From an uncultured Clostridia bacterium (GTDB lineage: Bacteria > Bacillota > Clostridia > Oscillospirales > Ruminococcaceae): a DNA stretch of 24,787 nucleotides. A model generated the notes under the pieces. That model was not told the DNA's origin and did no database searches. It saw only the letters and a list, made by a program, of their open reading frames with translations. Made by a program: the position numbers and the translations under genes. The DNA lies in assembly GCA_937893735.1 (NCBI GenBank), contig CALBGD010000054.1:1-24787 (forward strand), read 5' to 3'. Positions 1 to 14,745 of the stretch are shown piece by piece; the stretch's first letter is position 1, and each line of letters opens with the position of its first letter.

Positions 1-438
1 TTCGCCATGAAACAACCTCCGCAGTCTGAAATATACGCGGCGTATAAAGAAGCTCCTCCAGAGGAAAACGTACGCCCGGTAGGAGAACTTACCCGCCGGA
101 ATTTTCTTCCCGTTCCGGGTGATGTACCTTACGCGCGCCGTTATCTGCTCCGGCGTTATGCCGGGCTCCGGGGAGAGCTGATTGTCGCCGCACATGGTGA
201 AGCTCCCGTTCTGCTCTGATATTACCCGGTGTAATATGTAGGAGCCGTCCGCGCGCTGATAGAACGCGATATCTCCGGGTCTGACCGGGGCTTTTTCGAG
301 GGTCACGCTGTCCCTGCCCTGAACTATCAGCGGGAGCATACTCGTGCCGCGCGGGAAAATCGTGAACTCCCCGCCGCTGTCGAGCACCGCGCGTATAGTG
401 TCGTCGTAATCCGACAGGCGGAACCTCTGCTCAGGCAA
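1..438 (-). CDS. S26-like (signal-peptidase-type) serine peptidase, partial at the window edge
   Basis: The reading frame is open from the window edge back to a TTG at 438, giving 146 codons with no stop, so the 3' end is outside or only just beyond the window. Visible motifs are FPRGTSMLP, the catalytic-Ser box of signal-peptidase and S24/S26 enzymes, then RPGDIAFY and YILHRV, then a CGDN box. A His in the LHRV position instead of the Lys of typical bacterial enzymes resembles the SipW/ER-type Ser-His branch. The C terminus is basic and aromatic, possibly membrane-associating. The proposed TTG start overlaps the end of the PqqD-like gene by 8 bp, so the two are probably translationally coupled; the start is uncertain because no strong Shine-Dalgarno is present. 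With the PqqD-like gene and the YxxP peptide across the promoter region, a role in cleaving a small peptide is plausible but inferred. Confidence 0.72.
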   Translation of the reverse strand, partial: MPEQRFRLSDYDDTIRAVLDSGGEFTIFPRGTSMLPLIVQGRDSVTLEKAPVRPGDIAFYQRADGSYILHRVISEQNGSFTMCGDNQLSPEPGITPEQITARVRYITRNGKKIPAGKFSYRAYVFLWRSFFIRRVYFRLRRLFHGE

Positions 439-694
439 GGAGCGCCGCCTTTTTCAGCTTTTCCGTGAACGCGGCGACATCGGTCTGCGCCTGCTCCGGG
501 GTCACGTCGTATTCGCCGAGGAGCGCGGCGCAGAGCTGCTCCGGGGTCTTGTCGGCGGAGAGCTGTTCCCACAGGAACTTCCCGCTTTCGTTAAGGCGGA
601 TTATCCCGTTGAAGCTGCGGCTTGCCTCGCCCAGGGCCACAACAACGTACTGCCCGCCGACCTTTCTCAGCATGAAACCGTCTTTTATTTTCAT
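431..694 (-). CDS. PqqD family protein (RRE-like peptide-binding fold)
   Basis: This 87-residue protein has the size and layout of stand-alone PqqD/RRE proteins: an N-terminal beta part (MKIKDGFMLRKVGGQYVVV), the 'LNESGKFLWEQL' helix typical of the family, then 'TPEQLCAALLGEYDV' and a C-terminal helix. PqqD-like domains recognise leader peptides of ribosomally made, modified peptides; this is family knowledge. The start ATG at 694 is preceded by AAAGAGG on the minus strand and by a consensus promoter. It overlaps the downstream peptidase gene. The only candidate substrate in the window is the YxxP peptide at 3748-3903. No modifying radical-SAM enzyme or lasso cyclase is visible, so the partner enzyme may lie to the left of the window or may not exist. 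Confidence 0.85.
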   Translation of the reverse strand: MKIKDGFMLRKVGGQYVVVALGEASRSFNGIIRLNESGKFLWEQLSADKTPEQLCAALLGEYDVTPEQAQTDVAAFTEKLKKAALLA

Positions 695-725
695 AGGTAT
701 ACCTCTTTCTGTAAAGTATGCTTTA

Positions 726-754
726 ATTATATAATATCATCTGTAAAAAGTCAA
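726..754 (-). promoter_or_regulatory. Sigma-A promoter of the PqqD-peptidase unit
   Basis: Read on the minus strand, TTGACT (754-749) and TATAAT (731-726) are separated by 17 bases, with the start codon about 30 bp downstream of the -10 box. This is a near-consensus housekeeping promoter. Confidence 0.85.
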
Positions 755-850
755 TGCCGGCTGTTACACGGCGGACGGGTAAAAGTGCACAAAGAAAATT
801 GCGGGTGTTAGTAAATAATGGAGAAAATGCCGCGCCGGGACTTTTATTGC

Positions 851-879
851 TTGACTTTTAAAGAAACTAAAGTTATAAT
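851..879 (+). promoter_or_regulatory. Sigma-A promoter of the secreted Big2 gene
   Basis: TTGACT (851-856) and TATAAT (874-879) are spaced by 17 bases. The boxes are identical to those of the divergent promoter about 100 bp away. The leader of roughly 60 nt contains a small AAGGA/TCCTT inverted repeat (887-903) ahead of the Shine-Dalgarno ATGGAGG. Nothing else is recognised in 755-850. Confidence 0.87.
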
Positions 880-945
880 TAACAATAAGGATTTATTTTC
901 CTTAACGGGAGAAAAACAATATTACTTTTTATGGAGGTTAATTTT

Positions 946-3725
946 ATGAGATTCAAGCGTGCGATGGCTGCTTCAATGGCGGCTGTTATGGCGGTAAGCT
1001 CTGCTATCGTTTGCCAGATTACGGCGAGCGCGGCGGCTGATGAAACATTATCAACTGGTTCACTTGGCAGTGCTGAACTTACAGAGGACCAGTATAATAA
1101 GGGCTATATAGCTAAACCCACTATTACACTTGATAACAAGTGGGGCAATGCAACAAGCCTTAGCGGATATGGAAAAGTTGTAGTATCGTATACCTGTGAC
1201 GCAGTCGATGATATTGCCAATATATATCTTGTTGCACAGAACGGAACAGTAAACTGGCATCAGGCTGTCGCTAAGCCACAGGCGAAAGGCACGATTACTC
1301 TTGATTTATCTGACGTACAGGATAAGACATACGAGGCTATTTGCCTGCTTCTACATATTCGATCGGTGATACATTTGACCCTAAGTTCACGGTTACCAGT
1401 GCAACTCTTTGTTCAGCGGACACAAGAACATGGAATGAAACAGAACTTAATGTTGATGGACTTCCTGCTACTACCGAGAATACAAACACAGCAATTGAAA
1501 TAGGCACTGGGAAAACACTTGACCCGAGCAAGTACAGCGATGAAGCTAAATTAGTTGTATACTATACTTCCGGTAATCAGAGCGGCTGGGGAAACATTCA
1601 GGTAGTTGATAATTCAACTGGCTGGGATTCAATAACCACCCTTCCTTCAAAGGGAGACGGCGTTGAGGCAAAGGGCGAGATAGATCTTTCTACGATCAAG
1701 GATATGACAAAGATCGTTCTTCAGAATAATAATGGCTCTGTGCTGACTAAAATCACAGTAAAGGACGTTGAGAAGTCTGACGTTGAAGTATCTTCCCTGA
1801 CGATCGAGGGTGACGCAAAGAGAACCGCTACATACGGCGACGCTGATGTTGAGCTGTCAGTAAAGCCGAATGACGACGCTACCACTTACGATGAATCAAA
1901 GGTAACATGGGCTTCTTCCAATGAAGATGTTGCTGCCGTTTCCACAGACGGCAAGGTTACATTTGTCGGCGCCGGCGATGTTAAAATAACCGCAACTTAT
2001 GACAACAATGATACTATCACCGCTTCTGTTGATTTCACTGTTGCCAAGAAGCAAGTAACTGCAACAATCACCGCAGGCGATGTTACGGACGCTTCCAAGG
2101 ACGACGCAGAAGATAAGGCAAAGGCTGCCGTAAAGGTAGTTTCTGCTGACCTTACCGATAAGGACTACACCGTTTCTGTTAGGGTAGACGGCAAGAAGTA
2201 TACAGCAGCCGTTGAACTCACAGAAGCAGCTGACAAGAAGTACGCGCTTACTGCCGCTGCTGCCAACGGAAACATCAGCTATAAGGTTACAGGTCTTAAG
2301 CTCAGCGAAAACACCCTTGCTATTCCCGTAACAAAAACCGATGGCGTACAGCTCACAGCTGCTATCCAGCCTGAGGGTCTGGCTGAGGGCGATATCGAGT
2401 GGAAGACCGATGACGATACAGTTGCAACAGTTGAGAACGGTCTGGTAAAGCCGGTTTCCGGCTCCGCAGGCAAAACGACCACTGTCACTGCGACCGTAAA
2501 GGGCACTGATGTAAAGGCAGAGTGCACAGTATCTATCGTTGAGGTAGTTAACCCCGCTGTAAAGATAGAACTCGACAAGACAGAGCTTTCCGGCACAGCA
2601 GGCGACAATGCAGAGTTAAAGGCTGTCGTTACCGCTGAGGATACCACAAAGGACTGCACCGATGTAGTTACATGGAAGTCCTCTGATGAAAAGGTTGCAG
2701 CTGTAAACGCAGGCTCCGTTACATTTGTGGGCGAGGGCACAGCTACCATCACCGCAACTGTCGGCGGCCAGTCCGCAACCTGCAAGGTTACCGTAAAGGC
2801 TAAGGTCATTGCAGTTGAAAAGGTAACTCTCGACAAGACCTCCGCAGAGCTCACGGTCGGCGATACAGCAACTCTCAAGGCAACTGTAACTCCCGACGAC
2901 GCTACCGACAAGACCGTTACATGGACTTCCTCCGATGAATCCGTTGCGACCGTCAAGGACGGCGTTGTTACCGCTGTAAAGGCTGGTACAGCTACCATCA
3001 CCGCAAAGGCTGACGGCAAGACCGCAGAGTGCAGGATTACCGTAAAGGCTAAGAGCCAGCCTGTTAAGGAAACAGTGCTCTGGAGCGGAAACACCGACCT
3101 CGGCACCGACTGGAACAAGAACGTGACAGTTCCCAAGGCGGACGTAAAGATCGGTGATGTGATCAGGATCAAGGTAGGCACAGGCTCCGCTGAGTACCAC
3201 CAGATCAAGATCATGGACAGCAGCTGGAATGTTCTTTCCTCCCTCAAGAGCAGGGCTCACTCTGAGTACGGCACCATCGACGTTGACAAGGACGGCTATG
3301 TTGAGTTCACTGTAAACGCTGCGGACGCTAAGCTCATCAGCGAGGGCGGTCTGATAATCTCCGGCTACGACCTGACTATCTCCTCTGTTTCCAACAAGGC
3401 GATGAAGGACGAGACCTATGCTCCGTCCACCAAGGTACATACTGTTGTAAACAACGGCACTTCCCAGATCGCGGTATTCGCTATCTCCGAGGAGGACGCT
3501 GACAAGTACCAGAGCTACACCGTTACCATCACAAGAGGCAGCGACAACAAGTGCGTATATGTTATCGTCAAGGACTGCTACAAGTACGTTACATACAACA
3601 ACGGCACTGAGGACATCAGAGTTTCCGGCAACGGCGCTTACTACATCATGCTTGACATCACAGACATTGAGGACAGCTTCGGCGGTATCACAGTAAGAAT
3701 CACCCCCACAGTACCCAAGGGTTGA
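946..3725 (+). CDS. Secreted multidomain protein with CBM-like and four Big2 Ig-like domains; interrupted by a -1 frameshift
   Basis: The start is the ATG at 946, with GGAGG at 934; the in-frame ATG at 931 is itself part of the Shine-Dalgarno. The frame is broken at the T run 1340-1342. Restoring one T joins codon 132 to the frame ending at 3725 and gives 926 residues. Residues 1-31 are a signal peptide (MRFKRAMAASM, hydrophobic core, ASA-A cleavage). Two related beta-sandwich, CBM-like units follow (about 56-135 and 180-275). Four Big2-type domains follow at about 281-366, 447-532, 537-617 and 624-701, each with a W-(T/K/A)-S(S/D)-variable-V-A-x-V core. A further CBM-like unit (LWSGNTDLGTDWNKNV) starts near 711, and then a C-terminal domain. 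No LPxTG, SLH or dockerin motif was found, so it is probably released or non-covalently held. Likely role: adhesion or glycan binding. As sequenced, only a truncated product would be made unless the frame is corrected. Confidence 0.8.
1338..1345 (+). other. Frameshift site in the secreted Big2 gene
   Basis: Codons GAG GCT ATT TGC lead into a frame that stops at 1503. Adding one T to the TTT at 1340-1342 gives GAG GCT ATT TTG CCT GCT and continues directly into the 794-codon downstream frame (E-A-I-L-P-A-S-T-Y). The domain sequence is continuous across the join, so this is a one-base deletion, a sequencing or assembly error, or a slippage site. Confidence 0.85.
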
Positions 3726-3747
3726 TTGAAAGAGAGGAAATTACGCA

Positions 3748-3903
3748 ATGAAAAAGACATACGTACAGCCTGAGATAGAGATCACAGCTTTCACCACTGA
3801 GGATATCATCACTGCCAGCACCATATCTTCCGGCATGAACAAGAAGGACGATGTTATCGGCAATGGTGTGAAGATCGACCTTAAGGACAAGGAATGGAAC
3901 TGA
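3748..3903 (+). CDS. Small peptide with YxxP leader motif; candidate RiPP-type precursor
   Basis: ATG 3748 is preceded by AGAGAGG (3731-3737) and encodes 51 residues, starting MKKTYVQPEIEITAF and followed by TTEDIITAS, then a polar segment (NKKDDVIGNG) and ending KDKEWN. The N-terminal K-x-Y-x-x-P-x-I-E pattern matches the leader motif that PqqD-like RRE proteins bind in lasso-type precursors; short peptides of this K-x-Y-x-x-P type are common in Clostridia. There is no Cys, and no signal peptide or membrane segment. It lies 22 bp after the secreted gene, so it is probably cotranscribed, and is followed by a terminator hairpin and then an HPr-kinase-like gene. Ser and Thr residues at 23-28 are possible modification sites. 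Precursor status is inferred; a small regulatory or structural peptide is the alternative. Confidence 0.7.
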   Translation: MKKTYVQPEIEITAFTTEDIITASTISSGMNKKDDVIGNGVKIDLKDKEWN

Positions 3904-3929
3904 TCCGCTCTGTAAAGACGGCATAACTG

Positions 3930-3962
3930 AACGCCGGACGTGTAAAAGCGCCCGGCGTTTTT
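3930..3962 (+). terminator. Hairpin terminator or attenuator after the YxxP peptide
   Basis: AACGCCGG (3930-3937) pairs with CCGGCGTT (3952-3959) and is followed by TTTTT ending at 3962. It lies between the peptide and kinase genes only 11 bp before the kinase start, so it would lower kinase expression relative to the peptide. Confidence 0.7.
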
Positions 3963-3973
3963 ACGAGGTGTGA

Positions 3974-4675
3974 ATGACAAGGATATACAATATCTGCGGT
4001 CTTAACGTGGAGTGCGATTTCCGGTTCCCGACAATGACCGCCCGGGCGGAGAAATACCTTTCCGGCGGCGTTCCGGAGATCCGCGTGCCGTTCCAGCCGG
4101 AAAAATTCGAATGGCTGAAACAGCAGGAGCCCTCCCTTGACGACGACAACTGCGAGATAATCTGCACAACCGAGAGCTTCTATATGCAGCTTCTGGGCTT
4201 CGGGGGATTCATGCTCCATTCCAGCGCCGTGGTGATGGACGGAGAAGCCTACCTGTTCTCCGCGCCCAGCGGCACCGGGAAATCCACGCACACGGCGCTC
4301 TGGCTGAAGCTCTTCGGGGAGCGCGCCGCGATACTCAACGACGACAAGCCCGCGATACTCCTCCGGGAGGACGGTATCTTTGCCTGCGGAACTCCGTGGA
4401 GCGGCAAGAGCGACCTTAATCTGAACCTGTGCGTTCCTCTGCGGGGGATATGCGTGCTGGAGCGCAGTCTGCAGAATTTCATCAATCCTCTCCCGGCAGA
4501 GAGAGCCGTGTACGCGCTGATGAACCAGACCCTCCGGCCGGAGGAACCGGAAAAAATGGCGGCTCTGCTGGAATACATCGACCGGGTAACGGAAAATATC
4601 CCGATGTGGAGAATGGGCTGCAATATCTTGGCAGAGGCGGCTCAGCTCGCTTATGATGCCATGTCAGGAAAGTAG
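3974..4675 (+). CDS. HPr kinase/PEPCK-like P-loop kinase (HprK-related)
   Basis: The protein has 233 residues and starts at ATG 3974, with GAGGTG at 3965. A Walker A loop, SAPSGTGKSTHTALW (96-110), an LNDDKPAI acidic motif (121-128) and a GTPWSGK motif (139-145) give the HprK C-terminal-domain fold. FMLHSSAVVMDGEAYLFSAP just before the P-loop is typical of the HprK-like proteins found next to peptide clusters rather than of the true HPr kinase of carbon catabolite control, which is longer and has an extra N-terminal domain. Related kinases phosphorylate lasso-peptide precursors in some Firmicutes (family knowledge). Its position directly after the YxxP peptide suggests that peptide, or a product of it, as substrate; this is inferred. 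No transmembrane segment is seen. Confidence 0.8.
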   Translation: MTRIYNICGLNVECDFRFPTMTARAEKYLSGGVPEIRVPFQPEKFEWLKQQEPSLDDDNCEIICTTESFYMQLLGFGGFMLHSSAVVMDGEAYLFSAPSGTGKSTHTALWLKLFGERAAILNDDKPAILLREDGIFACGTPWSGKSDLNLNLCVPLRGICVLERSLQNFINPLPAERAVYALMNQTLRPEEPEKMAALLEYIDRVTENIPMWRMGCNILAEAAQLAYDAMSGK

Positions 4676-4685
4676 TAAAAACTCA

Positions 4686-4721
4686 GCCATCTTTCACCTG
4701 AAAGCGAAAGATGGCTTTTTT
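4686..4721 (+). terminator. Rho-independent terminator after the HprK-like gene
   Basis: GCCATCTTTC (4686-4695) and GAAAGATGGC (4706-4715) form a perfect 10-bp stem with a 10-nt loop, followed by six T. It closes the peptide-kinase unit. Confidence 0.93.
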
Positions 4722-4793
4722 GACAGCCCTTTTCTGTGCCTGATGGGCGGCTTGAACCTTAATTACAATTCGGTTACAATATGTCGGAATATG

Positions 4794-4822
4794 TTTACAA
4801 ATGGAATATTATATGCTATAAT
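4794..4822 (+). promoter_or_regulatory. Sigma-A promoter of the GT2-GtrA operon
   Basis: TTTACA (4794-4799) and TATAAT (4817-4822) have 17-base spacing. Transcription would start about 20 nt before the ATG at 4848, which rules out the upstream in-frame ATG at 4653 as the start. Confidence 0.88.
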
Positions 4823-4847
4823 CTCTATGAAGAAAAGGGGGGAGAGC

Positions 4848-5924
4848 ATGAATGTTCCGGCAGTACTGCCGACCTACAACCCGAAGGAGAAGATTTTCGG
4901 CGTGGTTGACGGGCTGATATCCGCGGGATTTGAGCATATAGTCATAATAGACGACGGAAGCCGCCCGGAGTGCGGCGCGATATTCTCCCGGCTGACGGAG
5001 ATACCGCAGTGCACGGTGCTCCATCACGGAGTTAACCGCGGCAAGGGGCGGGGGCTTAAAACCGGATTCTCATATGTTCTTGAGCACTTCACGGACTGCT
5101 CCGGAGTCGTCACCACGGACGACGACGGACAGCACACCCCGCAGGATATCCGCCGGTGCGCCGAGGAAATGGAGCGCACAGGACGTCCGGTGCTTGGCGC
5201 CCGGGATTTCTCCGGCGGGGATATCCCGCCCAAAAGCCGCTTCGGCAACAACACGACCCGGTTCGTTTTCAGGTTCCTCTGCGGGATAAAAATAACCGAC
5301 ACCCAGACGGGGCTGAGGGCGCTCCCGCGGGAGTGCCTGCCGGCTCTCGTGAAGCTCGGCGGGGAGCGCTTCGAGTACGAAACCAATATGCTGCTCGAGA
5401 TGAAGCGCCTCGGCTGGAGCTTCGATGAAGTCAGGATACAGACGATATACGACGACAACAACAAGGGCACGCACTTCAATCCGCTGACTGATTCACTGCG
5501 TATCTACGGCATGATATTCAAGTTCATGCTGAGCTCCCTTGGCTGCTCGCTGATAGACATAGCGCTGTTCACGGCGCTCAACCTGCTGACTCAGCCGCTT
5601 TTCGGTGAGAACGAAACGCTACGCATTTTTGCGGCTACGGCGGGGGCGCGGGTGGTATCCTCGCTGGTGAACTTCCTTGTCAACAGGAGCCGCGTTTTCC
5701 GCTCCGGCGGCAGCGTGAAGCGCTCCATGGCGAGATACTACATACTCTGCGCGGGACAGCTCGCCGCCTCGGCGCTGTGCGTGCGGGGAGTTTCGTTTTT
5801 GTTCAGCGCCTCTGCGGGCTGGCAGTCCGTGATAAAGATAGTTATAGACACGATTCTGTTTTTCGTGAGCTTCGGTATCCAGCGCGACTGGGTCTACGCA
5901 GGCTCGAAAGGGGATAAGAAATGA
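4848..5924 (+). CDS. Family 2 glycosyltransferase fused to a GtrA-like membrane domain
   Basis: The 358-residue protein starts at ATG 4848 with a GGGGGGAG Shine-Dalgarno just upstream. Residues 1-220 form a GT2 domain of the dolichyl/polyprenyl-phosphate mannose synthase type: LPTYNP (7-12), DDGS (35-38), NRGKG (63-67), TTDDDGQH (89-96, metal-binding DxD region) and DTQTGLR (151-157). Residues about 224-350 contain four hydrophobic segments with the GtrA-like pattern (VNFLVNRSRVFRS between them). Such fusions are thought to make a lipid-phosphate-linked sugar and move it across the membrane. It is the first gene of a three-gene operon and ends in an ATGA overlap with the next gene. Donor sugar and acceptor cannot be read from the sequence. 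Confidence 0.9.
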   Translation: MNVPAVLPTYNPKEKIFGVVDGLISAGFEHIVIIDDGSRPECGAIFSRLTEIPQCTVLHHGVNRGKGRGLKTGFSYVLEHFTDCSGVVTTDDDGQHTPQDIRRCAEEMERTGRPVLGARDFSGGDIPPKSRFGNNTTRFVFRFLCGIKITDTQTGLRALPRECLPALVKLGGERFEYETNMLLEMKRLGWSFDEVRIQTIYDDNNKGTHFNPLTDSLRIYGMIFKFMLSSLGCSLIDIALFTALNLLTQPLFGENETLRIFAATAGARVVSSLVNFLVNRSRVFRSGGSVKRSMARYYILCAGQLAASALCVRGVSFLFSASAGWQSVIKIVIDTILFFVSFGIQRDWVYAGSKGDKK

Positions 5925-7018
5925 CCGGAAACACACTGGAAGAAAAGCAGCTCCCCCGGAGCCGTCCGCGCTTCAAGAAGAAAAAGCCCGGCACGGCGGC
6001 TATGGTGATACGGCGCGTACTGCTGGTGTTCTTCACGATAATTCTGGCGGTGCTTGCGGCTCTGCTGGGCGTGGTGTACGTCATGGAAAAGGGTCCCTCC
6101 GAAACGGCGCGGAACATCTTCGTTATCTCCTGCCGGGAAACCAGCGCCATAAAGTGGGTCCCGAACATATTCCTCTCAGACGAGCTGGTTGAGGAGATAG
6201 CCGCCCAGAACACCATCAAGGAAACGGACGACATCACCGACCCTGATTTAGTCCAGATACCCTCCCCGGATAACGCAGGGAGCGCCGCAGAAGCCGACCC
6301 GGACATCGACCCGGACGGCGACGGCGTGGACATAATCGACGTCAGCGGCTCCACATTCAAGGGCAAGATGATGGTGGTCTACGACCCGTCAAGGGTGTTC
6401 GTGGGCATTTCGGGAAAATTCGGTCTGGAGGAACAGGGCAAGACCCTGCCTGAGATATACGCCTCCTACGATAACATAATCGGAGCGGTCAACGGCGGCG
6501 GCTTTGACGACCGTCCCGGACACATGACCGGCGGCGAGCCGTGGGGTATAGTCATGTCCGAGGGCGAAGTCCTCTGGGGCACGCCGATGTACTATTCATG
6601 GGACACCATCGGGATAACATGGGACAATAAGCTTGTCGTCGGCAAGATGACCGTGCAGGAGGCAGTAGATATGGGAGTCCGCGACGCGGTGAAGTTCGGG
6701 CCTATCCTGATAGTGAACGGCGAGCCGGTGGAGGCACTCGGCGACGGAAGCGGGCTGAATCCCCGCACGGCGATAGGACAGCGCGCGGACGGCGCAATGC
6801 TCCTGCTGACGATAGACGGCAGGCAGTCCAACAGCCTCGGCGCGAGCCTTGCGGACGTCCGGGACGTAATGCTTGATTTCGGCGCGGTGAACGCCGCGAA
6901 TCTTGACGGCGGCTCCTCCACGAACATGATGTTCAACGGCGAGATAATCAACCAGAGCGCCAGCCTGATAGGGCTCCGCAAGATGTGCACCGCGATACTG
7001 GTAAGGGGTAAGGAATGA
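5921..7018 (+). CDS. Membrane-anchored phosphodiester glycosidase (NAGPA domain) protein
   Basis: The 365-residue protein has a basic N terminus and one transmembrane helix (about 28-54), placing the rest outside the cell. Residues about 150-363 carry the NAGPA/phosphodiester-glycosidase fold: GAVNGGGF (188-195), PRTAIGQ (281-287), DGR (299-301) and NLDGGSS (327-333), which are the conserved boxes of the family. The family cleaves sugar-phosphodiester bonds and in bacteria is linked to exopolysaccharide or wall glycan turnover. A linker at 126-140 is rich in Asp (DPDIDPDGDG) and resembles a single calcium-binding loop. The start overlaps the previous gene (ATGA) and the end overlaps the next (ATGA), so it is translationally coupled on both sides. 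The substrate is probably a surface polymer built with the GT2-GtrA enzyme; this is inferred. Confidence 0.88.
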   Translation: MTGNTLEEKQLPRSRPRFKKKKPGTAAMVIRRVLLVFFTIILAVLAALLGVVYVMEKGPSETARNIFVISCRETSAIKWVPNIFLSDELVEEIAAQNTIKETDDITDPDLVQIPSPDNAGSAAEADPDIDPDGDGVDIIDVSGSTFKGKMMVVYDPSRVFVGISGKFGLEEQGKTLPEIYASYDNIIGAVNGGGFDDRPGHMTGGEPWGIVMSEGEVLWGTPMYYSWDTIGITWDNKLVVGKMTVQEAVDMGVRDAVKFGPILIVNGEPVEALGDGSGLNPRTAIGQRADGAMLLLTIDGRQSNSLGASLADVRDVMLDFGAVNAANLDGGSSTNMMFNGEIINQSASLIGLRKMCTAILVRGKE

Positions 7019-8097
7019 GTACGAAAAAGCGGAGCCGGAAGGGCACGATAGTTTTTTACGCGATATATTTCGTCCTGCTGGCGGCGGTGCTTTCGGCGGC
7101 AGTCGTGGGGCTCGGAAAGCTGTGGGAGTTCCTCCAGCGGTACGAAGCCTGCCAGATTTACCACGTCACGGACGCGGCGGCAGAGGAGCTTAATTCCGGT
7201 AAGCTCGACCTGCTTTACGCGGCGGCTGAGGGCGATATCTCCCCCTACGAGGACGAGGAGGCGCTGCACCGCCAGCTCCGGGAGCGCTTCACAGGGGAGT
7301 TCTCCTTCAAGAAAAGCGCCAAGGAGAGCACCAAGGAAAGCCCGGTCTACACGATGATATGCGGCGGCGAGCCGATGGCGTACATAGCGCTCACGCAGAC
7401 CGCGCAGGACTCCGTTTACGGCTTCGGGATATACAGCATTACCCGCGCCTACGGGATAACTCCGGAGAAAAACGAGAGCGTAACGGTCACGGTGCCCACC
7501 GGGTGCTCCGCGCTGATAAACGGAAAGCCGCTGACGGAATACGCGAAAAAGACCTCCGAACCGGTGGAGGGCTGGGAGGATTTCGGGGATTACCTCGCGG
7601 ACCCGCCGGAGCTGACCACCTATACAATAGACGGACTGATGTACCCGCCGGAGGTGGAATTCACGGGCGCGGGCGGGAATCTCCCGGCGGAGATATCGCA
7701 GGACGGCGCGTATTCCTGCGCCCTGCCGGTGACGGACAGCGCCGCCGCAGAGGAAGCGGAGCAGTTCGCGCTGGAATTCTCGGAGATGTATTCGAAGTAC
7801 ATCGCGAACGACCTGTATTTCTCGGCGATATCCGGCTATATCCCGCAGGACGTGAAGCTTTACAGCGACCTGCGGACTTACGAGGGGCAGTTCTACACCT
7901 ACCACACCGGGTACGACTTCACTGAGGAAAAGACGGTGAGCGTACAGCAGTACTCCGCAGAGTGCTTCTCGGTGCGCGTGAGCTATGTGCACAACGTGTA
8001 TTACGGCGGGGAGACCTACTCCTACCCGGCGGACAACACGATATACGCGGTCAGGACAGACGGAGGCTGGAGGGCTGTCGGGCTCACGATGAACTAA
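7015..8097 (+). CDS. Membrane-anchored extracellular protein of unknown function
   Basis: The 360-residue protein has a KKRSRK basic start, one transmembrane segment (about 9-34) and a long acidic extracytoplasmic part. No recognised catalytic motif was seen. The C-terminal third (about 245-360), rich in Tyr and ending YAVRTDGGWRAVGLTMN, has the look of an NTF2/SnoaL-like alpha+beta barrel, but this is only an impression. It overlaps the NAGPA gene by 4 bp (ATGA) and is the last gene of the operon, so a supporting role in the same surface-polymer process is the most economical reading. It ends just before a large hairpin ahead of the PucR gene. Confidence 0.8.
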   Translation: MSTKKRSRKGTIVFYAIYFVLLAAVLSAAVVGLGKLWEFLQRYEACQIYHVTDAAAEELNSGKLDLLYAAAEGDISPYEDEEALHRQLRERFTGEFSFKKSAKESTKESPVYTMICGGEPMAYIALTQTAQDSVYGFGIYSITRAYGITPEKNESVTVTVPTGCSALINGKPLTEYAKKTSEPVEGWEDFGDYLADPPELTTYTIDGLMYPPEVEFTGAGGNLPAEISQDGAYSCALPVTDSAAAEEAEQFALEFSEMYSKYIANDLYFSAISGYIPQDVKLYSDLRTYEGQFYTYHTGYDFTEEKTVSVQQYSAECFSVRVSYVHNVYYGGETYSYPADNTIYAVRTDGGWRAVGLTMN

Positions 8098-8145: not shown

Positions 8146-8178
8146 TAATGTATACTATTTCAGCCGGGAGTGATTTTT
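8127..8178 (+). promoter_or_regulatory. Nested inverted repeats covering the PucR gene Shine-Dalgarno; also a possible terminator
   Basis: CTCCCGGCTG (8127-8136) pairs perfectly with CAGCCGGGAG (8161-8170). The loop contains a second perfect repeat, GTATAC (8139-8144) with GTATAC (8150-8155). The outer right arm contains the GGGAG Shine-Dalgarno and is followed by five T (8174-8178). RNA reading in from the upstream operon would form the hairpin, ending transcription or hiding the ribosome site. RNA started at the local promoter lacks the left arm and would be free. Confidence 0.7.
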
Positions 8179-9369
8179 CTGTACTACATCACCGTAAAAG
8201 ACATACTTGACCTCGACATAGCAAAGGACTGGAAGGTGCTTGCGGGAAACGGCGGGCTCTCCAAGACCGTGAGCTGGTTCTACATCTGTCAGGACGACGA
8301 AATTACCCCGTGGGTGCAGGGGCGCGAGCTGATGATACTCTACGGCTCCGGCGTGAAGCGGGACACCGCAAACCTCGTCAGAATTGTTGACATCTGCTCC
8401 GAGCGCCAGATATCCGCGATACTGGTGCTGATAGGCCATTATTTTATGGAGCTCCCCGCCGAAATGCTGGACGAGGCCGACCGTCTGGACGTCCCGGTCA
8501 TCACCATGCCCGCCTCTATCCCGATAGGCGCGGTCACCAAGGCGGTGGCTTATCTGCTGTTCTCCGAGCGGCACTATATGCGGCGCGGCGGCGAGGCCCT
8601 GCGGGATATAATCTACGGCTACGACGAGGACGAGCGCAGCCACTTCAACGCCATCGAGCGCGCGGGCTACAAGATGCGCAGGCGTTCCTTCGTGGCGGTA
8701 ATGCGCACCTCCGACCGGGCGCTGTCAGAGATGACGGACACCCAGCATATCCTGACCGATGTGTGCAATGTGCTCAACACCCCGATAGCATATATCCAGA
8801 AAAACCGCATAGTCGCCCTCACCGGCACGGACGATACGGATTCCGTACACTCTCTGATGGAGGCGGGCGAAAGGCTGGTATCACTCGCTTCGGAGAAGTA
8901 CGGGCTGAAAAATATGTACTTCGCCCTCGGCAGCCAGATAACCCATAAAAATACGATAAAATCCAGCTACCGGGACGCCGTGAATACCGTCAGAGCCGTT
9001 GATGTTTACCCAATTGACAGAAAATGCAGGAATTGCGCGGAGCTTCCTGCAATAATAAAGATGCTTTTCCGGACAGATGACCGGGATTTCATACGGAGCT
9101 GTTATGAGCAGGAACTCGGCGGCATAATCGAATACGACAGGAAGCATAATGCCGAGCTGCTGATAACGCTGGAGCGCTTCTTTGAGGAGAACTGCAACGC
9201 CAGCCGCGCCGCCGACAAGCTGTATATCCACCGCAACACCATGAACAACCGCCTGCGGCTGATTTTCGATATCCTCGGGCACAACTGCTCAGACCCAGAA
9301 AAACGCTTCGCCGCCGAGAACGCAATTTACTGCTTCAAATACCTTAATATGCAGGAAGAACAAAAATAA
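8170..9369 (+). CDS. PucR family transcriptional regulator
   Basis: About 399 residues with the three-part PucR/CdaR layout. An N-terminal PucR sensing domain (about 5-125, starting YYITVKDILDL) is followed by a middle GGDEF-like CdaR region and a C-terminal HTH_30 (about 330-392) with the signature AADKLYIHRNTMNNRLRLI. The family controls purine, allantoin and related nitrogen catabolism; the inducer is not predictable. The start is uncertain. GTG 8170 has no Shine-Dalgarno of its own because it overlaps GGGAG. A CTG at 8179, giving MYYITVKDIL, sits 8 nt after that GGGAG and would be the better-placed, non-standard start. It directly precedes the codA-urt operon on the same strand and is its likely regulator. 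Confidence 0.88.
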   Translation: MIFLYYITVKDILDLDIAKDWKVLAGNGGLSKTVSWFYICQDDEITPWVQGRELMILYGSGVKRDTANLVRIVDICSERQISAILVLIGHYFMELPAEMLDEADRLDVPVITMPASIPIGAVTKAVAYLLFSERHYMRRGGEALRDIIYGYDEDERSHFNAIERAGYKMRRRSFVAVMRTSDRALSEMTDTQHILTDVCNVLNTPIAYIQKNRIVALTGTDDTDSVHSLMEAGERLVSLASEKYGLKNMYFALGSQITHKNTIKSSYRDAVNTVRAVDVYPIDRKCRNCAELPAIIKMLFRTDDRDFIRSCYEQELGGIIEYDRKHNAELLITLERFFEENCNASRAADKLYIHRNTMNNRLRLIFDILGHNCSDPEKRFAAENAIYCFKYLNMQEEQK

Positions 9370-9370
9370 A

Positions 9371-9386
9371 TTGCAACACTGTGCAA
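9371..9386 (+). promoter_or_regulatory. Candidate operator dyad TTGCA-N6-TGCAA upstream of codA
   Basis: A perfect 5-bp inverted repeat starts 2 bp after the PucR stop codon. Its centre lies about 51 bp before the predicted codA start point (-10 TAAAAT, 9418-9423). The half-site TTGCAA recurs as the -35 box of the pucR promoter (8117-8122). That arrangement would suit activation of codA and self-repression by PucR; this is inferred. Confidence 0.4.
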
Positions 9387-9414
9387 ACTGTACATCGTAA
9401 TTTGCCGGATATTG

Positions 9415-9423
9415 TGCTAAAAT
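9415..9423 (+). promoter_or_regulatory. Extended -10 element of the codA-urt operon
   Basis: TGcTAAAAT (9415-9423) is a good extended -10, but the -35 position at 17-base spacing (TCGTAA, 9395-9400) is poor, which fits an activator-dependent promoter. Confidence 0.5.
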
Positions 9424-9443
9424 ACAAACAAGCAAAAGGACAG

Positions 9444-9492
9444 CGCAGTCCTGATGGAGAATCAAAGCTCCGTCAGGGCTGCGGCTTTTTTT
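9444..9492 (+). terminator. Strong terminator hairpin in the codA leader
   Basis: Arms 9444-9459 and 9468-9483 form a 16-bp stem (two G-U pairs) with an 8-nt loop, followed by seven T (9486-9492). It may simply end pucR. Because only about 28 bp separate it from the codA ATG, the codA promoter must lie before it and transcripts must read through, so it may be an attenuator. A short GGAC/GTCC stem (9438-9451) competes with its left arm. Confidence 0.88.
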
Positions 9493-9520
9493 ATTCATGA
9501 ATTGTCAGGAGGTTATTGAA

Positions 9521-10759
9521 ATGCTGGTAAAAAATGCGAAGCTCAGAAAGAAAGACGGACTTTACGACATCACGATAACAGGCGGAAAGTTCGGAAAGAT
9601 AGTTCCCGCCGGGCAGGGCGGCGCAGACCCGGAGACCATTGACGCGGCAGGAAAGCTGGTCATTCCTCCCTACTGCGACTCACACGTTCATCTTGACTAT
9701 GCGATGACCGCCGGAGTTCCGCACCACAACCTCAGCGGTACGTTATTCGAGGGGATCCAGATATGGGCTGATCACAAGGCGCAGGTTCCGCTCACCAAGG
9801 AATACATGAGGGAGAACGCAATAAAGACCCTTGAGCTGATGAGGTCCTACGGCGTACAGCACGTCCGCTCCCACGTTGATACCGGCGATGAGAATATGCT
9901 GGGCGTTAAAACCCTGCTGGAGCTGAAAGAGGAATACAAGGACAAGGTAGATATTCAGCTCGTTGCATTCCCGCAGGACGGCGTATACACCTACAAGAAG
10001 GGCGCGGAGCTCCTTGAGGAGGCTGTAAAGCTCGGCTGCGACTGCGTAGGCGGTATCCCGCACTTTGAGTACACAAGGGAATACGGCGTGAAGTCAGTGG
10101 AAAAGACCTTCGAGCTGGCTGAGAAATACGACAGGCTCATTGATATCCACTGCGACGAGATAGACGACGAAGCTTCAAGGTTCCTCGAGGTAGCGGCAAC
10201 GCTCGCCTATGAGAGCGGGCTCACGGATAAGGTGACGGCGAGCCACACGGTGGCAATGCACTCCTACAACAACGCCTACTGCATGAAGCTGTTCAATATC
10301 CTGAAGAAATCGAAGATAAATTTCGCGGTATGTCCGCATGAGAACACGCACCTTCAGGGCAGGGCGGACGCTTATCCCAAGCGCCGCGGCGTAACAAGGG
10401 TAAAGGAGCTGCTTGACGCGGGACTGAACGTTTCGTTCGGTCAGGATTCCATCTCAGACCCGTGGTACCCTCTCGGCACCGGAAATATGCTGTGGGTGCT
10501 TGAATTCGGGCTCCACGTATGCCAGTACATGGGTTACGATGAGATCTCGAACAGCCTCGACCTCATCACGGAAAACGGCGCTAAGACGATGCACATCACC
10601 GACCGCTACGGAATCGGCGAGGGCAAGCCGGCGGACTTCCTCATCATCGACGCAGAGAACGATTTCGAGGCTGTACAGTACCTGAAAGACGTGCTTTACT
10701 CCGTAAAGAACGGCAAAATCATCATGAAGCGCGACCCGGCAGTGGTAACGCTTTACTAA
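9521..10759 (+). CDS. codA: Cytosine deaminase (amidohydrolase superfamily)
   Basis: The 412-residue protein starts at ATG 9521, with AGGAGG 8 nt upstream; an upstream in-frame ATG at 9497 lies before that Shine-Dalgarno. The sequence follows E. coli CodA closely from memory: metal ligands H55 and H57 (DSHVHLD), H210, E213 (IDIHCDEIDD), H242 (TASHTVAMHSY) and D309 (SFGQDSISDPWYPLG), plus SGTLFEGI and FPQDG. It should convert cytosine to uracil and ammonia in the cytoplasm; CodA enzymes also accept isoguanine and similar bases. The residue after the ligand Asp is Ser310 where E. coli has Asp314, a known specificity position. It lies upstream of an importer of the Urt family and downstream of pucR, which points to nitrogen-base scavenging. 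Confidence 0.9.
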   Translation: MLVKNAKLRKKDGLYDITITGGKFGKIVPAGQGGADPETIDAAGKLVIPPYCDSHVHLDYAMTAGVPHHNLSGTLFEGIQIWADHKAQVPLTKEYMRENAIKTLELMRSYGVQHVRSHVDTGDENMLGVKTLLELKEEYKDKVDIQLVAFPQDGVYTYKKGAELLEEAVKLGCDCVGGIPHFEYTREYGVKSVEKTFELAEKYDRLIDIHCDEIDDEASRFLEVAATLAYESGLTDKVTASHTVAMHSYNNAYCMKLFNILKKSKINFAVCPHENTHLQGRADAYPKRRGVTRVKELLDAGLNVSFGQDSISDPWYPLGTGNMLWVLEFGLHVCQYMGYDEISNSLDLITENGAKTMHITDRYGIGEGKPADFLIIDAENDFEAVQYLKDVLYSVKNGKIIMKRDPAVVTLY

Positions 10760-10792
10760 ATAAAGAAAAAGGAACACAAGGAGGAAACAACA

Positions 10793-11977
10793 ATGAAATC
10801 ACGATTCTTAAAGAAGCTCTTATCCGCAGCGCTGGCAGTGACCACCTGCGCAGGCATCGTCACCGGAATGACCGGCTGCGAGGGCGGCTCGTCCGATGAG
10901 ATAAAGATAGGTCTGCTGTTCTCAAAGACCGGCGCTACCGCCATCACCGAGGAATGTATGATAAACGCCGCACAGATGGCCATTGACGAGGTGAACGACG
11001 CCGGCGGGATCAACGGAAAGAAGCTCACCTACGTTCTCGAGGACTACGCGACAGACGCCGCAACAGCCGCAGAGAAGATAAAGAAGCTCATCATGCAGGA
11101 CGAGGTCATCGCGACAGTCGGCTGCTACACCTCCGCTTCTCGTATCGCCTGCGAGCCGGTGGTAGAGGACAACGATTCGCTGCTTATCTACCCCACATTC
11201 TACGAGGGCGAGGAGCCGTCCAAGAACGTGGTCTACACAGGCGCAGTTCCGAACCAGCAGGGCGATATCTTCGTACCGTGGCTGGCTGAGAACGTCGGCA
11301 AGAAGTTCTTCCTGCTGGGCACCGATACGGTTTACGCTCAGCTCATCAACTCCCAGTGCCGCGCAAGCCTTGACGCGTGCGGCGGCGAGGTAGTCGGCGA
11401 GGAATACGTTCCGAACGCGCACAACGACTTCTCCTCCATCATCACAAAGATCAAGGAGGCTGACCCGGACGTGCTGTTCGTAAACCTCAACGGCGACTCC
11501 GGAGTTGCATTCTTCAAGCAGTACAAGCAGTACGGTCTGGACGCTTCCACAATGCCGGTAGCCTCCTACCTGCTGGACGAATCCACCGTTGCGGCTCTCG
11601 GCGCTGAAACAGCCGCAGGCCACTACACCTCCATCAACTATGTAAGCACGCTCGACACTGACGCAAACAAGGAGTTCCTGAAGAAGTACCACGAGAAGTT
11701 CGGCGACGACGCTGAGATGACCGTTGTCGGCGAGGAGACCTACGTTTCCGTAAAGCTTCTTGCAGAGGCTCTGAAAAAGACTGACGACTACTCCGCAGCT
11801 TCCATCATCAAGGCGATGGACGGCATCACGCTGGACGTTCCCGAGGGTCAGGTAAAGTTCGACCCGGAGACAAACCACCTCTATCTCAGAGGCAGAATTG
11901 CAAAGGTAAGCGACGAGGGCAAGTTCGAGGTAGTTTACGAATCCCCTGAGCTCATCAAGCCGGATCCTACAAAGTAA
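10793..11977 (+). CDS. UrtA-family substrate-binding lipoprotein of an ABC importer
   Basis: The 394-residue protein begins with a lipoprotein signal (MKSRFLKKLL, hydrophobic core, MTGC with Cys29 as lipidation site), so it is anchored outside the membrane. The mature part is a type I periplasmic-binding fold of the Peripla_BP_5/UrtA group: IKIGLLFSKTGATAITEE, LIYPTFYEGEEPSKNVVYTG, PNQQGD, KKFFLLGTDTVY and NGDSGVAFFKQYKQYG, each with a close counterpart in urea-binding UrtA. AmiC-like amide sensors share this fold, so the ligand could be urea, an amide, a ureide or a nucleobase. GGAGG precedes ATG 10793. It lies 33 bp after codA and is followed by a stable hairpin that may raise its mRNA level over the permease genes. 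Confidence 0.88.
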   Translation: MKSRFLKKLLSAALAVTTCAGIVTGMTGCEGGSSDEIKIGLLFSKTGATAITEECMINAAQMAIDEVNDAGGINGKKLTYVLEDYATDAATAAEKIKKLIMQDEVIATVGCYTSASRIACEPVVEDNDSLLIYPTFYEGEEPSKNVVYTGAVPNQQGDIFVPWLAENVGKKFFLLGTDTVYAQLINSQCRASLDACGGEVVGEEYVPNAHNDFSSIITKIKEADPDVLFVNLNGDSGVAFFKQYKQYGLDASTMPVASYLLDESTVAALGAETAAGHYTSINYVSTLDTDANKEFLKKYHEKFGDDAEMTVVGEETYVSVKLLAEALKKTDDYSAASIIKAMDGITLDVPEGQVKFDPETNHLYLRGRIAKVSDEGKFEVVYESPELIKPDPTK

Positions 11978-12003
11978 AGGCGGTATCCACTATTCCAAAA
12001 GAG

Positions 12004-12030
12004 ATGGAGCGGCAGAGGTTGCCGCTCCAT
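12004..12030 (+). promoter_or_regulatory. Intercistronic hairpin between the binding-protein and permease genes
   Basis: ATGGAGCGGCA (12004-12014) pairs perfectly with TGCCGCTCCAT (12020-12030) around a 5-nt loop. Only three T follow, so it is more likely an mRNA-stabilising or partial-termination element than a full terminator. Such hairpins are common behind binding-protein genes that need higher expression. Confidence 0.7.
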
Positions 12031-12052
12031 TTACCGAAATGAGGTGCATTTT

Positions 12053-12910
12053 ATGTTTATCGCTGCTCAGCTGATAAACGGTATATCGGCGTCTGCGCTG
12101 CTGCTGATATATTCCCTCGGCGTTGTCGTGATCATGGGTCACATGAACGTGGTCAACATGGCGCACGGCGAATGTATCATGCTTGGGGCCTACGTCTGCT
12201 ACTATATCAACACCGTTGCGGGCGCGCCGTTCTTCGTGGCGCTGATAATGTCGTTCGTTGTGACGGCGCTGTTCGGGCTGCTGATAGAACGTCTGGTCAT
12301 ACGGAAGCTCTACGGCAAGACTGCGGAAACGCTGCTCGCGACCTACGCGCTGTCGCTAATCGTGAAGCAGCTTGTAAACCTGATCTGCGGCTCGGAGCTG
12401 AAATACATCGCGATACCCTTTGAGGGTCATCTGGATATCGGCGGCGTGACTATCCCGTACTACAACATCTTCATTATCCTGTTCGCGGCGGTTATCCTGC
12501 TGGTAACATGGATAATCTTCTACAAGACCCCGTTCGGGACAAAGATGAGGGCTGTCACCAGTAACCGCCCGATGACCGAATGCCTCGGAATAAACGCGCA
12601 CGCTGTCGATTCCCTGACGTTCGCTTTCGGCGTAGGCCTTGCGGGACTTGCAGGCGCGGTCCTCGCCCCGATACGCGGCGTATCGCCGTTCATGGGAGCC
12701 TCCTACATCACCGACTCGTTCATCAACGTATGCGTCGGCGGACTCCAGTCCATGATAGGCACAACGCTTTCTTCGCTGCTCATCGGCGAATCCACCTCTA
12801 TCCTCGGCGGCTTCTGGAACGAGGTAGACGCAAAGATACTCGTGTTCCTGATAGTCGTGGTACTTATCCGGTTCCGTCCGGACGGACTTTTCAGAAAGGA
12901 GAAGAGATAA
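12053..12910 (+). CDS. Urt-type ABC permease subunit (UrtB/LivH-like)
   Basis: The 285-residue protein is mostly hydrophobic, with about eight membrane segments and the LivH/UrtB pattern: LINGISASALLLIYSLGVVV at the N terminus, MNVVNMAHGECIMLGAY, KTPFGTKMRAVTSNRPMTEC (the cytoplasmic loop that contacts the ATPase) and GLAGLAGAVLAPIRGVSPFM. The start is ATG 12053, 6 nt after GAGGTG; the in-frame GTG at 12044 lies inside that Shine-Dalgarno. It ends 1 bp before the next permease gene. It would form the channel with the 12912-13979 product. Confidence 0.9.
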   Translation: MFIAAQLINGISASALLLIYSLGVVVIMGHMNVVNMAHGECIMLGAYVCYYINTVAGAPFFVALIMSFVVTALFGLLIERLVIRKLYGKTAETLLATYALSLIVKQLVNLICGSELKYIAIPFEGHLDIGGVTIPYYNIFIILFAAVILLVTWIIFYKTPFGTKMRAVTSNRPMTECLGINAHAVDSLTFAFGVGLAGLAGAVLAPIRGVSPFMGASYITDSFINVCVGGLQSMIGTTLSSLLIGESTSILGGFWNEVDAKILVFLIVVVLIRFRPDGLFRKEKR

Positions 12911-12911
12911 T

Positions 12912-13979
12912 ATGCTGGAACGCATTAAAAAAATGCCCGTCAACAGATGGGTAGACATCGCACTCTTCATCTTTCTGCTGATCTTCCCGCTCATCTTCAA
13001 CGATTACCGCACGGGCTTCATGGGGAAGACCGCAGCCTACATGATATTCGCGCTTTCCCTTGACCTGCTGTGGGGCTACACCGGGCTTATGAGCTTCGGT
13101 CACGCGGCTCTGTTCGGGCTTGGCGGCTACATCGTCGGGCTTTCGTTCACCATTCAGGACGGTATCCCGTCGTTCATGGCAAGAATGGGCGTCGAGGAGC
13201 TCCCGTGGTTCCTGAAGATACTTGAAAACAACATCGTTGCCTCCCTGCTGGGGCTGATAATCCCCGGGGCTTTCGCAGCGTTCCTCGGATACTTCATATT
13301 TTCCAGCAAGGTCAGCGGTATATTCTTCTCGCTGATAACGATGGCTCTGGCGCAGATATTCGAGACATTCTTCGCGAACCAGTCCGCCTACACCAACGGC
13401 ACCAGCGGACTCGGCGGCCTCCCGCGCAGCTTCTTCGGCATCGAGCTGAAAGTAAAGCCGTTCTACTACCTCACAATAGGAATCGTGATACTGGTCTACC
13501 TGCTGTGCCTGTGGCTGACGAACTCCCGGTTCGGCAAGGTGCTGATGTCCGTGCGCGAGGACGAGCGCAGGCTCTCCTTTATCGGCTACAATCCCGCGAG
13601 ATTCAAGATCGCCGTTTACGCGCTGTCCGGTATGCTGGCGGGGCTCTCCGGAATGCTGTTCGTTCCGTTCAACGGAATGATCTCCCCGACCGAGCTGGGT
13701 ATCTCCCTCTCCACGATGGTGCTTATCTGGATAGCAGTCGGCGGCAGGGGAAACCTCACCGGCGCAATGCTCGGAACGGTGCTGATAAACTGGCTCCAGA
13801 CGCTGCTTTCGGAATACTCCGCGGATATCTGGCCGCTGGTTCTGGGTGCGCTTATTCTTGCGGTAATATTCCTTATCCCGACAGGCATAATCGGCAAGCT
13901 GAAGGAGATACAGTACAACATCGCCGCGCGAAAGACCCTCGAAAAGCTCTCGGCAAAGGAGGAAGAGAATCATGGGTGA
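12912..13979 (+). CDS. Urt-type ABC permease subunit (UrtC/LivM-like)
   Basis: The 355-residue membrane protein shows LDLLWGYTGLMSFGHAALFG near residue 55 and the LivM/UrtC core YTNGTSGLGGLPR, SRFGKVLMSVREDERRLSFI (ATPase-contacting loop) and WIAVGGRGNLTGAMLGTVL. About nine to ten hydrophobic segments are visible. GGAG lies 12 nt upstream of ATG 12912. The end overlaps the following ATPase gene by 8 bp, so expression is coupled. Confidence 0.9.
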   Translation: MLERIKKMPVNRWVDIALFIFLLIFPLIFNDYRTGFMGKTAAYMIFALSLDLLWGYTGLMSFGHAALFGLGGYIVGLSFTIQDGIPSFMARMGVEELPWFLKILENNIVASLLGLIIPGAFAAFLGYFIFSSKVSGIFFSLITMALAQIFETFFANQSAYTNGTSGLGGLPRSFFGIELKVKPFYYLTIGIVILVYLLCLWLTNSRFGKVLMSVREDERRLSFIGYNPARFKIAVYALSGMLAGLSGMLFVPFNGMISPTELGISLSTMVLIWIAVGGRGNLTGAMLGTVLINWLQTLLSEYSADIWPLVLGALILAVIFLIPTGIIGKLKEIQYNIAARKTLEKLSAKEEENHG

Positions 13980-14745
13980 AGTACAGCCGCTGCTCAGGGT
14001 GGAACATCTGAGCGTAGAATTCAAGAAATTCAAGGCGCTGACCGATGTGAACCTCACCGTAAACAAGGGCGAGGTGCGGGTGGTCATAGGTCCTAACGGC
14101 GCGGGAAAATCCACGCTGATGGACCTCATCTGCGGCAGGACGAAGCCCACCTCCGGCAAGGTATTCTTTGACGGCGTGGACATCACCGGAAAGGAGCCCT
14201 ACGATATCTCCGCGAAATACGGCATAGGGCGCAAGTTCCAGAACCCGAACATCTTCAATATGCTGACGGTGTACGAGAACATCGAGGTGGCTCTGCGGGG
14301 CTACAACACGGTGTTCAGGGCGCTGGCATTCCGGCGCACGGCGGAGGTAAGGGAGAAGATAGACCGCGTGCTGGAGATGATAAAGCTCAGCGAAAAGCGG
14401 AACATCATCGCCTCCTCCCTCTCCCACGGCGAGCGCCAGTGGCTGGAGATAGGCATGGTGATAGCACAGGACCCGAAGCTCATCATTCTTGACGAGCCGA
14501 CCGCCGGCATGACCGCCGCGGAGACCTACAAGACCGGCGAGATGATAAAGGAGCTGCTCGCCGACCACACCGTAATGGTAGTCGAGCACGACATGGACTT
14601 CGTAAAGCAGGTGGCGCAGACCGTAACGGTGCTGCACCACGGTCAGCTTCTCGCGGAGGGCACCTTCGAGGAAGTCGAAAAGGACCCCCGCGTAATACAG
14701 GTGTACCTCAAGGACGATTCAGACGAAGAAGCAAAGGAGGCGTGA
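13972..14745 (+). CDS. Urt-type ABC transporter ATPase (UrtD/LivG-like)
   Basis: The 257-residue ATP-binding subunit has Walker A GPNGAGKST (40-48), signature LSHGERQWLEIG (150-161) and Walker B LIILDEPTAGM (170-180), with the switch His in VVEHDMDF. The signature 'SHGxxQWLEIGM' is the form seen in UrtD rather than in LivG, supporting assignment to the urea-type branch of the branched-chain amino acid transporter family. It energises import at the cytoplasmic face with its partner ATPase at 14750. Confidence 0.92.
   Translation: MGEVQPLLRVEHLSVEFKKFKALTDVNLTVNKGEVRVVIGPNGAGKSTLMDLICGRTKPTSGKVFFDGVDITGKEPYDISAKYGIGRKFQNPNIFNMLTVYENIEVALRGYNTVFRALAFRRTAEVREKIDRVLEMIKLSEKRNIIASSLSHGERQWLEIGMVIAQDPKLIILDEPTAGMTAAETYKTGEMIKELLADHTVMVVEHDMDFVKQVAQTVTVLHHGQLLAEGTFEEVEKDPRVIQVYLKDDSDEEAKEA

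Follow-up and report, generated by a model that had tools for sequence, protein, structure and literature searches.

What does a bacterial cell make from a locus in which a 51-residue peptide, a stand-alone PqqD-family protein, an S26-like peptidase and an HprK-like kinase are encoded around a large secreted protein? The window, by which we mean the whole 24,787-nucleotide stretch analyzed here (contig CALBGD010000054.1 of an uncultured Clostridia bacterium), carries these genes at its left end in two divergent units. The minus strand encodes a recognition element (RRE) of the kind that binds precursors of ribosomally synthesized and post-translationally modified peptides (RiPPs), followed by the peptidase, which is of signal peptidase I type (SpI); the plus strand encodes the secreted protein, the peptide and the kinase. 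Open reading frames (ORFs), profiles and a kinase model agree with the first-pass annotation on the positions of the peptide and the three enzymes and on the identical promoter boxes of the two units. We propose, with a probability of roughly two in three, that the locus combines the machinery of a phosphopeptide pathway resembling that of the linear polyphosphorylated peptides (LPPs) with one precursor, which is partnered with the large secreted protein at the cell surface. We favor this reading because the kinase, RRE, SpI, an NTP_transf_5 enzyme and the leader peptide co-occur in relatives, divergent layouts are shared, the lasso leader peptidase B2 was found in none of 52 related kinase genomes, catalytic residues are conserved, the kinase is predicted to have an HprK fold, the biochemistry of the LPPs offers a precedent, and peptide genes are paired with genes for secreted proteins.

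The LPPs were described in 2026 from the lpp cluster of Paenibacillus alginolyticus (PMC13381572). There, the RRE protein LppB binds a YxxP leader, whose kinked Pro and whose Tyr are fixed by its N33 and D70 respectively, the kinase LppK adds several phosphates to Ser3 of the core, and the peptidase LppS, an SpI with the triad S29/H68/D93, removes the leader in a reaction that needs the RRE. The first-pass annotation had suggested that this may be a phosphorylation-and-cleavage system with no macrocycle, and this cluster, demonstrated by biochemistry to combine the same three enzymes and a YxxP leader without forming a macrocycle, supports that idea by analogy.

The precursor gene of the window (positions 3748..3903, plus strand, from ORF and homologue alignment) starts 22 bp behind the secreted-protein gene and encodes 51 aa beginning MKKTYVQPEIEITAFTTEDIITAS. 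All of the 21 database candidates sharing words with this peptide turned out to be its relatives at E<=0.01, and in the resulting 22 sequences residues 1-3, 5, 8-9, 11-22, 24 and W50 are invariant while the stretch between varies, so that we consider it a real gene. As judged from these alignments, about 24 conserved first residues are followed by a varying stretch and a retained C-terminal Trp, as is typical of RiPP precursors with their leader and core; by conservation and by analogy to LppA, residues 1-22 (3748..3813, plus strand) are the predicted leader. The leader is present in 1638 protein clusters (3539 candidates scored). Its residue frequencies were tabulated from the 112 top homologues of the 1638 found, leaving out close relatives of the window peptide (P0121-P0128); 109 of these could be placed and 3 could not, and the 109, being the best-scoring hits, overstate the conservation of their consensus, K-[KE]-x-Y-x-x-P-E-[MIL]-E-[IV]-x-x-F-x-x-E-D-[VI]-I-T-x-S-G. 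The Ser at Y+19 is kept in 22/22 close relatives, in 98% of the 109 placed homologues and in 15/24 peptides from a more diverse set chosen by eye. From its conservation in relatives, we propose the corresponding Ser24 of the window peptide (codon 3817..3819, plus strand) as the phosphorylation site. The cores vary in length and have no fixed position past the Ser-Gly region, with frequencies tabulated to Y+24. One relative, a 119-aa peptide (L002:5756-6115) beside a Big_2 secreted protein, joins the conserved leader to a long core of NES/DES repeats.

The enzymes fit this picture to different degrees. The RRE (431..694, minus strand; PF05402, E 2e-18) is an LppB-like, stand-alone member of the PqqD family, and in an alignment to 9x8z its N35 and D72 fall, by our own residue mapping, on N33 and D70 of LppB. 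It overlaps the start of the SpI gene (1..438, minus strand), which runs off the left edge of the window. The alignment-derived residues Ser33, His70 and Asp85 of SpI are invariant in 36/36 aligned sequences; its best model, the archaeal signal peptidase I TIGR02228, scores 26 bits, below the 52-bit cut-off, and searches of PDB sequences gave weak matches to signal peptidases with a profile and nothing meaningful with the single sequence. The putative LppK-like kinase (3974..4675, plus strand, from predicted model and profiles) is encoded 70 bp after the peptide. Its NCBIfam matches (ScmC, HprK_rel_A) are all below cut-off and its profile matched no PDB sequence, and its predicted model, with a pLDDT of 94, has 52 PDB matches at E<=0.001, of which the 50 listed are all PEPCK or HprK/P, making us confident of a predicted HprK/PEPCK fold. 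The weak NCBIfam matches of the kinase and the RRE include ScmC and ScmD of the SynChlorMet cassette, a likeness limited by scores far under the cut-offs (30 versus 125 bits and 24 versus 100 bits).

Do these genes belong together? The first-pass annotation had named a lack of co-occurrence as one result that would refute it. We counted co-occurrence in a sample of 297 genomes, all from one family and of unstated completeness; the kinase was found in 41 and not in the other 256, and the outcome does not refute the annotation. Fisher and other count tests, here and below, ignore kinship among the genomes. The kinase, RRE and SpI go together almost perfectly: the RRE subtype was found in 40/41 kinase genomes versus 6/256 others and SpI in 40/41 versus 8/256, both by profiles derived from copies at kinase loci and thus biased to that subtype, and NTP_transf_5 in 36/41 versus 17/256. 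The RRE is within 5 kb of the kinase in 33/41 genomes. The leader peptide tracks the kinase as well. With matches to the leader profile (A5) accepted at E<=0.01, 77 hits fell in 34 of the 297 genomes, 31/41 with the kinase versus 3/256 without it, and the former fraction is 26/36 once the five genomes that had contributed sequences to the profile are removed. Of the three kinase-less genomes, G052 is probably a chance hit, lying inside an 1865-codon frame; in G189 and G294 leader peptides and a C-terminal domain discussed below are present although neither kinase nor RRE was detected, which points to incomplete assembly or loss.

A scan of a genome collection with the kinase profile found at least 593 relatives, of which the best 80 loci (L-numbered) were kept. 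Single-sequence comparison detected an RRE homologue in 56/80 and an SpI homologue in 48/80 of these, with the RRE no more than 400 bp behind the kinase in 48/80. Among the 80 loci and the window together, 24/81 sequences have an ABC-exporter family gene and 12/81 a nucleotidyltransferase family gene. Two loci share the divergent layout of the window: in L123, RRE-SpI-NTP_transf_5 diverges from a secreted protein, two YxxP peptides, a lipoprotein and the kinase, and in L002 from a Big_2 secreted protein, the peptide with the NES-repeat core and the kinase. In L124 and L125, RRE-SpI-ABC-NTP_transf_5 diverges from a secreted protein, and the kinase of each genome is encoded on a separate contig. 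The genes of the window are thus no orphan quartet, since relatives of the same layout add NTP_transf_5 and some an MsbA-like ABC exporter; truncation at the left edge may have removed the former, and in keeping with some relatives also the latter, from our sequence. Nearly all of the loci carry taxonomy labels of Clostridia or its subgroups, the exceptions being one Bacilli, one Bacillota and one Lentisphaeria. The last (L069), a kinase-RRE-SpI locus with a YxxP peptide, lies outside Bacillota, and binning contamination is possible.

Taken against the LPP paper (PMC13381572), the likeness is broad: a discrete RRE gene overlapping an SpI gene on the same strand; an archaeal-type SpI with Ser-His-Asp, in our case on a TIGR02228 match below its cut-off; an HprK-like kinase, by predicted fold in the window; a YxxP leader, a variable core and no B2 peptidase (0/52 related genomes); and an NTP transferase with an MsbA-like exporter, seen here in relatives (NTP transferase in L123 and L002, ABC and NTP transferase in L124 and L125). 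The differences lie in the leader, where the LPP motif YxxPxVLxHQxIxFETxxS is replaced after YxxP by E-x-E-[VI]..F..ED[VI]IT.S, in the several unlinked precursors per genome, in the precursor genes often standing directly behind genes for large secreted proteins, whereas the LPP clusters of Bacilli sit in capsule loci, and in the nearly exclusive Clostridia labels of the loci seen here. A phosphopeptide machinery with scattered precursors, many of them paired to secreted proteins, is absent from the portion of that paper on which we draw; the LPP data may already include Clostridia members. In our searches of the open-access literature, neither this leader nor its pairing with secreted proteins turned up.

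At least two leader peptides, and up to 8, are held by 18 of the 31 peptide-bearing kinase genomes, and of the 70 leader hits in kinase genomes 51 are unlinked to the kinase, being separated from it by over 10 kb or placed on a different contig, so that one enzyme set appears, on this comparative evidence, to serve several scattered precursors in trans. The upstream neighbor could be scored for 54 of the 77 leader hits, the other 23 having no flanks or short ones only. A peptide was counted as paired when it started no more than 150 bp behind a same-strand signal-peptide gene, the control being 124 neighboring gene pairs from the same loci, and it should be borne in mind that greedy gene calling picked the wrong strand at times (L008, G300:C54). 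By this measure 32/54 peptides are paired versus 28/124 control pairs (Fisher p 4.5e-6), made up of 25/43 unlinked peptides, 4/7 within 10 kb of the kinase and 3/4 in kinase-less genomes; the unlinked peptides by themselves give p 4.2e-5. The 32 paired peptides follow 30 distinct proteins of 339-4585 aa (median about 925), which by Pfam include BspA-like LRR proteins, a papain-like protease with a lectin-like domain, transglutaminase-like proteins, a cellulase with dockerin, PKD/CAP proteins and Big_2 proteins, several others being without any Pfam match. The kinase gene shows a similar tendency, its nearest co-directional upstream gene encoding a signal peptide in 27/56 cases versus 81/411 distant genes (p 1.2e-5; 80 loci). 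The suggested coupling of the pathway to the large secreted protein thus gains support from such scattered pairs.

Do the paired proteins have anything in common? We collected 48 proteins, comprising those behind which peptides are encoded, seven linked to kinases and that of the window, and compared their last 160 residues by BLAST. One C-terminal domain (A6) is shared by 24/48 and another (A7) by 8/48, neither having a Pfam name in the proteins scanned; the secreted proteins of the window, L002 and L123 fall in neither cluster. A6 occurs in 24/41 kinase genomes versus 0/35 systematically picked kinase-less genomes, and in 2/4 special cases (G189, G294). A peptide was scored behind 30/64 A6-bearing proteins, a partly circular figure since the profile was built from peptide-adjacent proteins. 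When the other 34 were re-read, 5 proved to be followed by a leader peptide (L193, L210, L214, L222, L223). For the remaining 29 none was seen, although some of them stop close to the end of a contig or had little flank, and the domain can therefore stand alone with no peptide behind it, most notably in G125 and G129. The predicted fold of A6 (pLDDT 65) has only immunoglobulin-type proteins among the matches listed, none at E<=0.001.

These two sets of observations bear on the strongest competitor of our reading, in which the locus is an ordinary LPP-type cluster whose core is a diffusible product such as a bacteriocin or a signal, with no relation to the secreted protein encoded next to it. 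The enzyme set is indeed that of the LPPs and the LPP clusters of Bacilli lie in capsule loci (PMC13381572), and some peptides have no secreted neighbor. Chance neighborhood does not readily account, however, for the excess among unlinked precursors (25/43 versus 28/124 in the control), which were found by profile regardless of their neighbors, or for the C-terminal domains shared by many of the paired proteins, and we regard this explanation as unlikely.

Returning to a core that is partnered with a secreted protein, a few motifs hint at how the two might meet. Next to some of the kinases and peptides there are small lipoproteins with the C-terminus ELP[FL][VI]P[AVI], and a few peptide cores end alike, as ELPFVPAEK (L134) and ETPFVPI (L133). 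Ends of the ELPxVP type occur in 5/21 lipoprotein-like genes near a kinase or peptide (5/19 without two duplicate loci) versus 0/90 elsewhere, the p of 1e-4 for 5/19 being optimistic, as the motif was noticed before counting. The motif is found in only 2/109 top peptide cores and the window has no such lipoprotein, for which reasons the sharing of C-termini between lipoproteins and cores stays a lead. In L020, the core sequence DNDIADPWG of the peptide (7715-7840) is repeated exactly in an adjacent SLH protein (9036-9923), with a score of 56 versus <=30 elsewhere. We considered core duplication in neighboring proteins as a general rule and rejected it: among 23 peptides, each compared with its own locus and 40 other loci, the own-locus match is strong in L020 alone, one peptide of L123 shows a slight excess (31 versus 29), and the window core shows none, 18 of the 40 other loci scoring as high. 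Separately, two neighboring proteins in L020 share the C-terminal ending D[ED]GW[ST]GIY. The ELPxVP ends, the L020 repeat and the shared C-terminal domains suggest that the core might be a ligand of the secreted protein, fixed to the envelope by its modified end; the ELPFVP[AVI] lipoproteins would then look like the same ligand in a form anchored by lipid. In its full form, this would be a RiPP-based surface-protein system, with one machinery and many scattered precursors, each co-transcribed with a secreted protein, and with the core as an envelope anchor or adaptor docking on the C-terminal domain. We offer this extension tentatively, and on balance doubt it.

How, then, might the pathway run? 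We infer that the peptide is the substrate of the kinase, the RRE and SpI alike. The 51-aa peptide would be bound by the RRE through its YxxP leader and, by analogy to the LPP enzymes, phosphorylated on the conserved Ser24 by the HprK-fold kinase, after which the archaeal-type SpI would remove the leader, perhaps by a cut somewhere from residue 20 to residue 24. The linear acidic core might then undergo further modification and export by an NTP_transf_5 enzyme and an MsbA-like exporter, whose genes we expect to the left of the window as in relatives. As for the precursor, it would belong with the large secreted protein encoded 22 bp upstream, and most likely the exported core acts at the cell surface as a partner of that protein. 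One could instead imagine that nothing is exported and that the phosphopeptide, bound to the RRE, acts in the cytosol as a regulator linking the kinase to synthesis of the secreted protein. The shortness of the peptide and the place of its gene right after that of the secreted protein, the several copies apparently served in trans and a window without an exporter would all suit this idea; but it leaves SpI, in 40/41 kinase genomes, and the exporter of some relatives (24/81 sequences; L124, L125) unexplained, and we find it quite improbable. Finally, it is very improbable that the product of the enzyme set is a lasso or another cyclic peptide after all, closed by a cyclase encoded elsewhere in the genome: an HprK kinase, a PqqD/RRE protein and a nucleotidyltransferase do accompany paeninodin-like and ruminal lasso clusters (PMC13381572, PMC7533575), yet B2 (PF13471) was found in 0/52 related kinase-bearing genomes, the cyclase itself not having been searched, the peptidase here is SpI, the paeninodin-like leader is WxxP with Gly at the RRE N33 position as opposed to YxxP and N35 in the window, and the cores vary in length, with no fixed position past the Ser-Gly region in the frequencies tabulated to Y+24.

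The reading of an LPP-like pathway partnered with a secreted protein must still bear several observations that weigh against it. YxxPx[IL] is kept in the leader, but the HQ (+8/+9) and FET (+13) of the LPPs are in 0/109 placed homologues, and the RRE scores, by profile only, higher with TbiB1 (42.7 bits), TfuB1 (37.5) and PbaB1 (34.6) than with LppB (29.8), indicating no special kinship to LppB; for both reasons we class the locus as an LPP-like variant and not as LPP. The leader profile found no peptide in 10/41 kinase genomes and a single-sequence search with the window peptide matched in 5/80 kinase loci only. Profiles taken from kinase loci cannot show that other PqqD proteins are absent from non-kinase genomes. 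The window itself is without NTP_transf_5 and ABC genes, the 3' side of the operon being cut at its edge. The signal peptides of the pairing analysis were assigned by a crude heuristic, and 22/54 peptides fail the pairing measure, at least 6 of them clear exceptions; about 6 others, by eye, come after large genes of secreted appearance, are truncated or miss the 150-bp limit only narrowly. The secreted protein of the window matches neither the A6 nor the A7 profile. Nor is it the single secreted Big2 protein first described: the signal-peptide-like start (judged by eye) and the four Pfam Big_2 stretches are there, in two ORFs of different frames (931..1503 for the N-terminal and 1341..3725 for the main part, plus strand), which may reflect an assembly error or a real break. 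With these reservations, the earlier interpretation is supported as far as sequence comparison goes.

A few features of the surroundings deserve mention. Both divergent units are preceded by the same promoter-like box, TTGACT-17-TATAAT, at 726..754 (minus strand) before RRE-SpI and at 851..879 (plus strand) before the secreted protein, peptide and kinase. Our promoter scan of positions 600-5000 found 11 promoter-like sites against 5.3 expected, so that these boxes are only leads. The region directly downstream (4653-7018) encodes a GT2/GtrA protein and an NAGPA phosphodiester glycosidase, set off from the peptide genes by a hairpin resembling a terminator (4685-4716) and then a promoter-like box (4794-4822). 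Ordinary neighbors fill 8170-18900: a PucR-type regulator, an amidohydrolase, a five-gene ABC uptake operon of branched-chain-amino-acid type and, beyond it on the opposite strand, VWA (CoxE-like) and DUF5682 proteins.

For the LPPs, no biological role was known as of 2026 (PMC13381572), and the link to a secreted-protein gene, seen for over half of the peptides examined, makes function directly testable in this family. The linked secreted proteins include adhesin-like and hydrolase families, and their pairing with peptides may point to a means of furnishing the cell surface that has yet to be described. If the core should indeed prove to be an anchor, it would provide a route of surface attachment besides sortase, S-layer and lipoprotein anchoring.

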